From the NCBI GenBank assembly GCA_021300195.1, contig JAJTIE010000029.1:1-46278 (forward strand): 46,278 nucleotides of DNA, read 5' to 3'. The translations under genes were made by a program, and so were the position numbers. The stretch's first letter is position 1. Every line of letters begins with the position of its first letter. The notes beneath the pieces were generated by a model, which was not told where the DNA came from, did no database searches, and saw only the letters and a list, made by a program, of their open reading frames with translations. The stretch comes from Bacteroidota bacterium. Lineage in GTDB: Bacteria; Bacteroidota; Bacteroidia; J057; JAJTIE01. This document shows, in pieces, positions 20,342 through 22,990 of this stretch.

Positions 20342-20818
20342 CTAGAGCCTGTGCTGATCGCGGATGTAGGCCAGCAGACCCGCAGTGCTGCGGTCCAGGA
20401 TGGCGTACACTTCGTCGAATGCGTCGTCGGACAGGCTGTAGGGGTCGGGCACCTCGTCGCCATCCTGCCGGGGGTCGAAGGTGCGTATCATCAGTAGCTC
20501 GCTGTCGGTCTCACGTGTCTGCCTCAGCTGCTGTACGGCCGCATAGTTCAGTACGTCCATCACCACCAGGTATCGGAATGTGCGCACATCCCTGGGCCGG
20601 ATCTGCCGCGCCCGGCCGGGGATCTCCAGCCCGTGCCTGGCTGCTACGGCTATGGACCGGCTGTCGGCTCGCTCGCCCTCATGCCAGCTGCCTGTGCCCG
20701 CGCTGTCTATCTCAAACTGATGCGCCAGGCCTGCTGCTTCCACCTTGGCTCTAAACAGAACCTCGGCCAGCGGGGAGCGGCAGATGTTTCCCATGCAGAT
20801 AAACAAGACACCGACCAT
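20342..20818 (-). CDS. Low-molecular-weight protein-tyrosine phosphatase
   Basis: This 158-residue phosphatase carries the P-loop CX5R near its N-terminus (FICMGNICRSP, Cys8 and Arg14) and the catalytic-acid loop VPDPY near residue 130. The start at 20818 is chosen because a -7 box ends four nt upstream; the longer frame from 20872 would run through that box. In bacteria such enzymes often oppose tyrosine kinases in capsule or exopolysaccharide control, but no kinase is nearby here. It lies 41 nt downstream of the AONS-like gene. Confidence 0.92.
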   Translation of the reverse strand: MVGVLFICMGNICRSPLAEVLFRAKVEAAGLAHQFEIDSAGTGSWHEGERADSRSIAVAARHGLEIPGRARQIRPRDVRTFRYLVVMDVLNYAAVQQLRQTRETDSELLMIRTFDPRQDGDEVPDPYSLSDDAFDEVYAILDRSTAGLLAYIRDQHRL

Positions 20819-20822
20819 GGCA

Positions 20823-20830
20823 CAAAAGTA
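20823..20830 (-). promoter_or_regulatory. -7 box of the tyrosine phosphatase gene (TACTTTTG)
   Basis: This exact TAnnTTTG match on the minus strand has only four bases between it and the ATG at 20818. It implies a leaderless transcript and independent expression from the upstream AONS-like gene. Confidence 0.6.
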
Positions 20831-20859
20831 GCGTTTTCGGCCCATTTGTGCCAGCCGTG

Positions 20860-21837
20860 CTAGCTTAGGCATCCGATGAGCAAGGACACATCATCGGGGG
20901 TATTGAAGCTGTGGAGGCAGATGCGCACCCGCTCTTGCCCCCGGGCTACGGTGGGGCTGCGCACAGGTAGTACCTGCACGGGGGCCAGTGCCTGCAGCAG
21001 CTGGGCCATATCTCCCCCCGCCAGTACCCCAAAGATGGGGCTGTCTCCACCCACAAAGGGGCGACCACTGGCCTGTAGCGCAGCCCGTAGCCGGCCCGTG
21101 TGCACCTGTAGTAGCTGGCGCTCGGCCTCTAGCCCCGGCAGCAGCTGGTAGGCCGCCTGCAGCGTATACAGCGTGTGTGCGGGGGGCGCTGTGGTGTAGA
21201 TAAAGCTACGGCAGAAATTGACCAAATAGTCTCGCAGGGTAGTGCTGCCCAGCACAATGGCCCCATGGCTGCCCAGTGCCTTGCCAAAGGTGTATACCCG
21301 TGCCAGGCACCAGGGGGCAATGGCTGGGTGTGTAGCCAGGCCGCGCCCCTGTGGGCCCAGTATTCCGTTGCTGTGGGCCTCGTCTACCACCAGGCGTGCA
21401 CCGGTGCGTGCGCACAGCTGGGCCAGGGCCCCCAGGGGGGCCGTGTCTCCCTCCATGCTGTATAGGGCCTCCACCGCTATCAGCACCCGGCCTGTGCCGG
21501 GCTGCGGTACGCGTGCCAGGCGTGCCTGCAGGTCGTCCAGGTCGTTGTGCCGAAAGCGAAAGGCCTGCGCCAGGCTCAGCCGGATGCCATCGCGCATGCT
21601 GGCATGTATGTGCTCGTCGTACAGGATGGTATCTCCCCGCCCGGCCAGTGCCTGGAATAGCCCCACATTGGCCTGATAGCCCGAGGCAAACAGCAGCCCC
21701 GCCTCTGCCCCATGGTAGGCGGCTATCTGTGCTTCTACCTGCATGGCCAGCTCGCTATTGCCCGCCAGTAGCCTGCTGCCTGTGCTGCCTGTGGGCGCAT
21801 CCTGGGCCAGGTGGGTGTCCCAGTCTGGCTCTGTCAT
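20860..21837 (-). CDS. AONS/BioF-like PLP-dependent alpha-oxoamine synthase, short at the N-terminus
   Basis: This 325-residue enzyme belongs to the alpha-oxoamine synthase family (BioF, KBL, serine palmitoyltransferase). Visible features are GSTGSRLLAGN, the His in DEHIHAS (about residue 78), VDEAHSNGILGPQGRG (Asp152, His155) and the PLP lysine in TFGKALGSHGA (Lys186). E. coli BioF has this lysine at 236, so about 50 N-terminal residues are absent, including the SNDYLGL segment. The upstream DNA is taken up by the ketoacyl synthase gene, whose stop overlaps this ATG by four bases, so the short start is probably real. Pairing with a ketoacyl synthase suggests condensation of an amino acid with an acyl chain, for example in biotin or lipid synthesis, but the product is not determined. 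Confidence 0.8.
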   Translation of the reverse strand: MTEPDWDTHLAQDAPTGSTGSRLLAGNSELAMQVEAQIAAYHGAEAGLLFASGYQANVGLFQALAGRGDTILYDEHIHASMRDGIRLSLAQAFRFRHNDLDDLQARLARVPQPGTGRVLIAVEALYSMEGDTAPLGALAQLCARTGARLVVDEAHSNGILGPQGRGLATHPAIAPWCLARVYTFGKALGSHGAIVLGSTTLRDYLVNFCRSFIYTTAPPAHTLYTLQAAYQLLPGLEAERQLLQVHTGRLRAALQASGRPFVGGDSPIFGVLAGGDMAQLLQALAPVQVLPVRSPTVARGQERVRICLHSFNTPDDVSLLIGCLS

Positions 21838-22955
21838 ACGCGGCTAATCAGGATCGATACGGCATTTCCGCCAAAACCCACGCTATTGATCAGGATGCGC
21901 TGCACCTGGTCGGGCTCGGGTGCACGCATTTCCGACTCGAAGGGCACGGGGGGCAGGGGTTCGCCCTGCAGCAGCCCCAGGGCCACCAGCAGGCTTATGC
22001 CGGCCGAGGCTCCAAAGGTGTGGCCCGTGTACCATTTGGTGCTGTAGCGTGCGGGCATAAGGGTGCCGAATAGGCGGCCCAGGGCGGCCTGTTCGGCAGA
22101 ATCGCCCACACGGGTGCCCGGGGCGTGCGCCAGCACCAGGTCTACGGCATCTGGCGTGCATCCGGCATCGGCCAGTGCTGCCTGCATACTGGCGTATAGG
22201 CAGTCGCCCGTGGGGGTAATACCCGTAGCACTGGGCACCCGCTCATTGCCAAACCCCAGGCCCAGGATGCGTGCCTGTGCCCCGGCGGTCTCCGTGGTCA
22301 GGGCAAACAGGGCGGCCCCCTCGCCCAATATCATCCCCCTGGCCTGGGCAGATAGGGGGCGGCAGGGCCAGGCGGTATAGGGTGCCTCGGCCGCAGCGTA
22401 GATGCCCAGTGCCTGCATCTGCGCCACTACAAAGGGGGTAAGCGGTGCCTCGGCCCCCCCGGCCAGGAAGCGGCTGACCATGCCGGCCCGCAGCCAGGCC
22501 ACGGCATTGGCCAGGGCAAAACCAGCACTGCTACAGGTGATGCTGTGCGAAAAAACCGGGCCGTTGGTGGCCCCCAGCTGCTGCGCCAGCAGGGCCGCCA
22601 GCTGGCCCGCAGTGGTGGAAGGCGAAGCCTGTGAATGCGTATAGCCCTGGTCGATAAACTGCCGGTGGTGATACTCCAGCTGCTCGGTAGCACCCCGTGC
22701 GCTCCCTACGTTTATGCCCATGGCCGTGCCAGGTTCCCAGCCTGCGGCTGCCATGGCAGTCCGGGCTGCCAGCAGGGCCAGCAGGGCCGATCGGTCTGCC
22801 CGCGCCAGGGCGTGCGCTGCACGCAGCTCGGCCAGCTGGGCCGCCCTGTGTGGGCCCAGCTGCACTACCGAAACCCCCAGGTGCACATCTGCCTCGGGCT
22901 GTGTGCCATACAGCCCGCCGGCACCTACTATGTAGATTCCTGTTCCGCTTGCCAT
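21834..22955 (-). CDS. Beta-ketoacyl synthase-like protein
   Basis: This 373-residue thiolase-fold condensing enzyme keeps the Cys-His-His set. The nucleophile is in ITCSSAGFAL (Cys141), the first His in LAHAPGTRVGD (normally HGTGT), and the second in KWYTGHTFGASAG, with the neighbouring Lys. GGAEAPLTP and ILINSVGFGGNAVSILI are also typical of KAS I/II relatives. The protein is somewhat short and its first-His loop is unusual. I start it at the ATG at 22955; the frame also reads back to a TTG at 22985. A -7 box lies at 22983-22990. It overlaps the AONS-like gene by four bases, so the two are translationally coupled. Confidence 0.85.
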   Translation of the reverse strand: MASGTGIYIVGAGGLYGTQPEADVHLGVSVVQLGPHRAAQLAELRAAHALARADRSALLALLAARTAMAAAGWEPGTAMGINVGSARGATEQLEYHHRQFIDQGYTHSQASPSTTAGQLAALLAQQLGATNGPVFSHSITCSSAGFALANAVAWLRAGMVSRFLAGGAEAPLTPFVVAQMQALGIYAAAEAPYTAWPCRPLSAQARGMILGEGAALFALTTETAGAQARILGLGFGNERVPSATGITPTGDCLYASMQAALADAGCTPDAVDLVLAHAPGTRVGDSAEQAALGRLFGTLMPARYSTKWYTGHTFGASAGISLLVALGLLQGEPLPPVPFESEMRAPEPDQVQRILINSVGFGGNAVSILISRV

Positions 22956-22982: not shown

Positions 22983-22990
22983 CAAAGGTA
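22983..22990 (-). promoter_or_regulatory. -7 box of the ketoacyl synthase operon (TACCTTTG)
   Basis: This exact TAnnTTTG match on the minus strand lies 27 nt before the ATG at 22955. It overlaps the TTG at 22985, which argues against that codon as the start. It is divergent from the box at 23082. Confidence 0.55.

Follow-up and report, generated by a model that had tools for sequence, protein, structure and literature searches.

A ketoacyl synthase (KAS) of the FabF type is a conserved part of the biotin operon in many Bacteroidota and, as far as we found, has not been described in that setting. In the literature searched on biotin and on FabF gating, at the level of titles and the beginnings of abstracts and with subscription papers and bioRxiv outside its coverage, no FabF-type KAS in biotin synthesis appeared. 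The role in biotin is strongly supported, and we consider it very likely that the enzyme serves biotin synthesis; its chemistry is put forward more cautiously. From the residues that set this KAS apart, we propose, with a probability of roughly 55%, that it is an arginine-gated, FabF-type analogue of BioZ, which would turn a dicarboxylyl primer into a pimeloyl-thioester without BioC and BioH.

The KAS gene lies next to a gene for a BioF (AONS)-like enzyme in the window, a stretch of 46,278 nucleotides that makes up contig 29 of a Bacteroidota genome (2.67 Mb in 71 contigs, 98.6% complete). The features of the pair are as follows.

21834–22955, minus strand: KAS gene of the biotin-operon type, 373 aa, FabF fold (PF00109/PF02801, AF2 model, clade membership)
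20860–21837, minus strand: gene for a BioF/AONS-like PLP enzyme, 325 aa, without the N-terminal segment (TIGR00858)
21834–21837, minus strand: ATGA, the four-base stop/start overlap of the KAS and BioF genes (direct sequence reading; same in the sister genome G001)

As the original prediction had stated, the KAS stop codon (TGA, 21836–21834) overlaps the ATG of the AONS-like gene (21837–21835) by four bases, an arrangement that suggests co-translation of the two proteins. The KAS start codon is the ATG at 22955; a TTG at 22985, 10 codons upstream, would merely extend the ORF. The sister genome, G001, which is the only other genome of the same family among the first 100 relatives, shares this gene pair, its order and its ATGA. 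An ORF for a low-molecular-weight phosphotyrosine phosphatase (20342–20872, minus strand) begins at the bioF end and may share the bioF transcript.

A search for the KAS over 395 relatives returned 43 genomes at E ≤ 1e-30. Nine of these were set aside as paralogues (107.6–118.5 bits: G028, G050, G150, G251, G261, G283, G322, G384 and G387), and 34 neighbourhoods were examined, namely those from 33 of the 42 other genomes (the window's not counted), all scoring at least 119 bits, and that of G063, which scores 99 bits, was added to the clade as a bioF neighbour and raises the linkage count by one. The weakest KAS retained (G123, G286, G307 and G366) score 119–139 bits; the score alone hardly separates the clade from the paralogues, and it is the linkage, the tree and the motifs that do. 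A bio gene was found within 8 kb in 29 of the 34 clade neighbourhoods (the window not counted), on the same strand in 28 and directly adjacent in 25, while none of 15 control KAS loci was linked to a bio gene (Fisher 1e-8). The controls comprise the nine paralogues and six further KAS loci, one of which (L180) spans just 3.4 kb; the FabF-like KAS of G001 (L186) served as a 16th control sequence in the alignments and the tree only. The weakest linked case is G002, where bioF lies about 4 kb away on the other strand.

The same association is seen in the public genome collection, in which 74 of the 80 best-matching loci have bio genes nearby. The layout among these 80 is mostly bioF-bioD-bioA-KAS, with bioB present or not, and 51 are directly adjacent; the frequent operon order in the clade of relatives is bioB-F-D-A-KAS. 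Most of the 80 loci carry Flavobacteriaceae titles and some belong to Hymenobacter, Pedobacter and other Bacteroidota, with Flavobacterium species among the listed loci that have the KAS in a bio operon. Conservation of the KAS-bio gene association in relatives, which had been named as a check on the pair, is thereby borne out in both sets. The tight coupling seen in the window is not general, because the KAS and its bio neighbour could share a stop/ATG overlap in 14 of the 34 clade loci (nearest ATG counted) and in only four of the best 80 public loci. A locus titled as a Bifidobacterium breve MAG (L237) holds a Bacteroidota-like bioF-KAS region and is probably a mislabelled or contaminated bin.

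The linkage data also bear on the idea that the KAS makes a product unrelated to biotin and that its gene merely travels with bio genes. Five of the 34 clade members (G005, G006, G007, G155 and G239) and six of the best 80 public loci are indeed away from bio genes, and FAS genes can occur in mixed operons. We nevertheless regard this explanation as improbable, because the linkage extends across many families with different partners (bioA-KAS in 21 loci, KAS-bioB in five, KAS-bioF in two and bioF-KAS in one) and because the KAS co-occurs with bioB: all 10 carriers with at least 142 bits among the first 100 relatives fall within the 60 genomes that have bioB (Fisher 0.005, uncorrected for kinship and with the weaker paralogue matches of G028 and G050 not counted). 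In the window itself, bioF is the sole bio neighbour of the KAS.

The KAS contains the Pfam domains PF00109 and PF02801, and its AF2 model (pLDDT 93.6) has FabF structures as its best PDB matches (Z about 51–52, about 22–27% identity). The fold search on this model returns FabF-like and related KAS and does not tell function. On the FabF equivalog TIGR03150 the protein reaches 123.6 bits against a cut-off of 493.75, and the clade is split from the controls by a branch with an SH-aLRT of 100 (47 versus 16 rows; a quick method, and the program cautions that this is where long branches join). The alignment A1 used the KAS of 33 of 35, with L087 and L095 omitted. Active-site positions of the KAS are listed below.

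22695–22697, minus strand: Arg87, the KAS residue that aligns with FabF Ile108 (Arg in 35/35 clade members and 80/80 listed public loci)
22533–22535, minus strand: active-site Cys141 (Cys in 35/35 clade members and 80/80 listed public loci)
22113–22127, minus strand: HAPGT loop with the first catalytic His277 (H-x-P-G-T in 35/35 clade members, 0/16 controls)
22020–22037, minus strand: Lys307 to His312, active site (invariant in 35/35 clade members and 16/16 controls)

The four catalytic residues, Cys141, His277, Lys307 and His312, are invariant in the 35 clade members, and in the alignment of the best 80 public loci they are kept together with Arg87 in 80/80, with Pro279 in 78/80. At the Arg87 position, all 16 controls have a hydrophobic residue (Val in 14, Ile in two). 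Arg87 and the HxPGT loop are the two distinguishing features of the clade that lie in the active site, and Ser111 and Thr115 also distinguish the clade, with at most one control alike. The first-His loop reads H-G-T-x-T in 16/16 controls. The original prediction had described the loop of the window KAS as unusual; HAPGT is indeed present where HGTGT would stand, and within the clade it is not odd at all, since H-x-P-G-T occurs in 35/35 members and in 78 of the best 80 public loci. Judged from these alignments, the HxPGT loop is a clade signature, and it was the right lead. The two loci with HCTGT (L244 and L261), both from Capnocytophaga, have no bio genes in the fetched flanks and keep Arg87 and the catalytic residues.

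Arg87 aligns with the Ile of the G-S-G-I-G-G motif in solved FabF. The match to E. coli 1b3n/1kas starts at query residue 74, equivalent to chain residue 95, which places Arg87 at 108 if no gap intervenes. Residue Ile108 has been described as a gating residue in the acyl pocket of FabF (PMC7138838), and there is a structure of B. subtilis FabF I108F. The window KAS thus resembles FabF/KAS II in fold, catalytic residues and the GFGG loop and differs from it in having HxPGT rather than HGT[GAS]T, Arg rather than Ile/Val at 108 and a location in the biotin operon; an assignment as ordinary FabF was rejected on the TIGR03150 score, the loop and the pocket residue. Contig 11 of the window genome encodes a further KAS, which is FabF-like.

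A ketoacyl synthase in a biotin operon is also known from BioZ of Agrobacterium, other alpha-proteobacteria and Rhodothermus. Two reports describe BioZ as a KAS III whose condensation substrates are glutaryl-CoA and malonyl-ACP (PMC7645780, PMC8024396), and in the latter S84, R147 and S287 are proposed to neutralise the glutaryl carboxylate; the serines mattered more than R147, of which the Ala mutant was partly active (PMC8024396). BioZ is of the FabH type, with Cys-His-Asn and glutaryl-CoA as substrate, whereas the window KAS is of the FabF type, with Cys-His-His, PF00109/PF02801 and Arg at the Ile108 position. The window KAS was accordingly rejected as a BioZ on its PF00109 and PF02801 domains and its invariant second histidine, His312, which place it outside the KAS III family. 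Besides the place in the operon, the likeness would lie in the reaction, in that the window KAS, too, may elongate a free dicarboxylyl primer with malonyl-ACP and so bypass BioC-BioH. The pocket arginine suggests a BioZ-like solution that was reached independently, which is why we propose direct dicarboxylyl elongation.

In the proposed mechanism, the KAS would load a short dicarboxylyl group on Cys141, either glutaryl or, in two rounds, malonyl, with Arg87 in the acyl pocket holding the free carboxylate of the primer. It would then condense the loaded primer with malonyl-ACP, and the reductases and dehydratase of housekeeping FAS would convert the condensation product to the pimeloyl-thioester, making the BioC/BioH methyl-ester disguise unnecessary. 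BioF would join the pimeloyl-thioester to alanine, after which BioA, BioD and BioB, encoded elsewhere in the genome, would act. Substrate and product are here those that the active-site sequence suggests, and we put the specific dicarboxylyl-primer chemistry at about an even chance. The malonyl-primed form of it is more tentative: two rounds (C3 to C5 to C7) by one FabF-type synthase and housekeeping FAS could yield the pimeloyl-thioester as a free dicarboxylate with no methyl-ester masking, lysine-derived glutaryl-CoA or oxidative cleavage, and this could be a new BioC-free route in Bacteroidota.

The KAS might instead act in biotin synthesis by other chemistry, such as transfer of pimeloyl from ACP to CoA or the making of a long acyl chain for cleavage by a different enzyme. 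In line with such a function, EmBioF of Elizabethkingia reportedly uses pimeloyl-CoA only in vivo (PMC12915131), the NCBIfam matches below their cut-offs include AmcF, an acyltransferase subunit with a KAS fold, and the HxPGT loop replaces a Thr that is retained in 16/16 controls. The conservation of Cys-His-Lys-His in 35/35 clade members and 80/80 listed public loci argues against it, and a pocket arginine would fit a long hydrophobic chain poorly; we hold this explanation to be unlikely.

Turning to the other biotin genes, we found bioB, bioA and bioD of the window genome on contigs 18, 23 and 39, respectively, with bioF on a fourth contig. A complete standard biotin operon elsewhere, together with no co-occurrence of the pair, had been named as evidence against the proposal; instead, bioA, bioB and bioD are spread over three other contigs and the KAS co-occurs with bio genes. 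A Mrr-type restriction endonuclease gene directly follows bioB on contig 18 (L079:8488–9432). The suggested genome search for a full-length bioF found bioA, bioB and bioD, no bioF other than that of the window, which is the sole candidate found in the genome, and no BioC over the cut-off. Two paralogues were considered as a spare BioF and rejected: that on C28 is Kbl (703 bits, over the cut-off) and that on C35 is BioF/SPT-like and passes no cut-off.

In the window genome, the best BioC match has 54 bits (E 2e-14; cut-off 184.95), BioE has no match at E 1e-5 and BioW was not found, with the B. subtilis control positive. We surveyed these routes in 80 genomes, consisting of the 60 bioB-containing genomes of the first 100 relatives and 20 KAS-containing genomes from the wider set; 31 of the 80 have the KAS (30 at 142 bits or more, and G063). 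BioE was located by its diiron spacing from PMC12915131, and the protein then served as a query. One of the 80 genomes has a BioC that passes the cut-off, four have BioE and none has BioW; neither BioE nor a BioC over the cut-off occurs in any of the 31 KAS-containing genomes. The mutual exclusion of KAS and BioC/BioE is not significant (P 0.079), and the BioC model passes its cut-off in just one of 14 control genomes, so that divergent BioC may be missed; KAS-containing genomes may have a BioC far under the cut-off or a BioH-type esterase. The four genomes with BioE lack the KAS. The BioE-BioL system of Elizabethkingia and other Bacteroidota is similarly a BioC-free pimelate route of the same phylum with its gene beside bioF, and differs in that BioE, a diiron oxygenase, works by cleaving long acyl chains. 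BioE-like ORFs at L124:4382–5005 and L122:8201–9061 adjoin bioF as well as a divergent gene of regulator size (of the MocR type in L124); the L124 protein has no Pfam or NCBIfam match.

BioZ itself may be present in KAS-containing genomes with two or more KASIII genes, including the window genome, which has two. Within a sample of 30 genomes, only one KASIII gene (E 1e-8) is present in each of the KAS carriers G005, G058, G127 and G362, which hence have no spare FabH to act as BioZ; G007 also has one, in a genome that is only 56% complete. Among the 60 relatives with bioB, 55 show none of BioC, BioE and BioW and 44 show none of these or the KAS, and for this reason the missing of known routes does not by itself point to the KAS. 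In those 44 relatives, at least one other route, BioZ or undetected versions of the searched routes must operate. In two of them, G049 and G083, the genes bioB, F, D and A are clustered and there is just one KASIII, and a further pimelate route seems to exist there (G025 and G026 are also among the 44). Grouping of the unlabelled genes beside bio operons gave no recurrent recognisable candidate for a pimelate gene. The original prediction had offered either an alternative biotin route or a lipid-like product. The former is well supported, as the KAS is located in Bacteroidota biotin operons and the searches for BioC, BioE and BioW came up empty in the genomes that carry it; nothing in the data supports the latter.

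The BioF-like protein of the window is shorter than its relatives. It matches TIGR00858 only from profile position 47, with 288.6 bits against a cut-off of 426.45, which the full-length BioF of G001 (375 aa, with YSNDYLGL) likewise does not reach (336.8 bits). The core is 57–60% identical to that of G001, and the conserved PLP Lys is kept. In the alignment to G001, the window protein retains the first 8–10 residues and picks up again just ahead of the conserved G-S-R motif, so that the absence of N-terminal residues including SNDYLGL, noted originally, amounts to about 44–47 residues. The break is at the following position.

21790–21815, minus strand: approximate junction of an in-frame deletion in bioF, after about 8–10 codons (alignment to G001 and 28 other BioF)

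It looks as though about 44 codons have been lost, in frame, from a site close to the start of the gene; neither a late start nor a new type of enzyme seems to be involved, and the former is disfavoured because the overlap and the start codon are conserved in G001, whose BioF is full length. Neither the rest of the window nor the rest of the genome yielded the missing segment (best E in the genome 0.47, compared with 1e-37 for the G001 positive control). A supply of the segment from another site was therefore rejected, in agreement with the earlier statement that no upstream frame provides it.

The segment, [S/T]ND[Y/V][L/F]G, is kept in 29/29 aligned BioF relatives (alignment A2: 22 of the 26 bioF from KAS loci and seven others, with G337 (L159), L098, L165 and L167 omitted). 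In the public collection, SNDY[L/I]G is kept in 62 of the 64 bioF-holding loci among the best 80 matches (L in 46, I in 16), and the remaining two are interrupted by a contig end. The bioF of G337 (about 10008–11092 of L159) is split between two frames about two-thirds along with its N-terminus intact, a frameshift or sequencing error. A functional, N-terminally short AONS shared with relatives was dropped, given that relatives carry the longer form, a finding that the original prediction had itself named as counting against it. It is still conceivable, and in our judgement very improbable, that the window protein alone works as a specialised AONS, as first supposed: the ORF is retained, H78, D152, H155 and K186, which we take to be the PLP lysine and the His/Asp/His active-site residues, are invariant across 30 alignment rows including the window, and the AF2 model has a confident core. 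The universal retention of the [S/T]ND segment in the aligned relatives and in nearly all bioF-holding loci of the public list speaks against this, as do the remnant residues 1–19, which have a pLDDT under 50.

We see the shortening in this genome only and read it as a lesion of recent origin, a variant of the strain or a fault of the assembly. That it is an assembly or strain artefact, with a living population that has the full-length gene, is a real possibility, somewhat short of even odds: the evidence is from a single genome in 71 contigs, the first 100 relatives include no second member of the genus, and everything past the junction is intact and in frame, with even codon-position GC along the gene. 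On the other side, the junction is in mid-contig and exactly in frame, and de Bruijn assembly normally needs reads that span a junction. If the deletion is real, BioF function would be lost; either the biotin route is probably impaired in this genome, or we are looking at a variant of the strain or of the assembly.

The source of pimelate, which gives most of the carbons of biotin, is the variable part of biotin synthesis. A conserved operon gene together with a specific active-site prediction opens the pimelate question to direct tests in a tractable Flavobacterium and in E. coli bioC/bioH mutants. If the proposed chemistry is true, pimelate synthesis would have recruited a ketoacyl synthase for a second time and independently, here from the FabF branch and not from the FabH branch.
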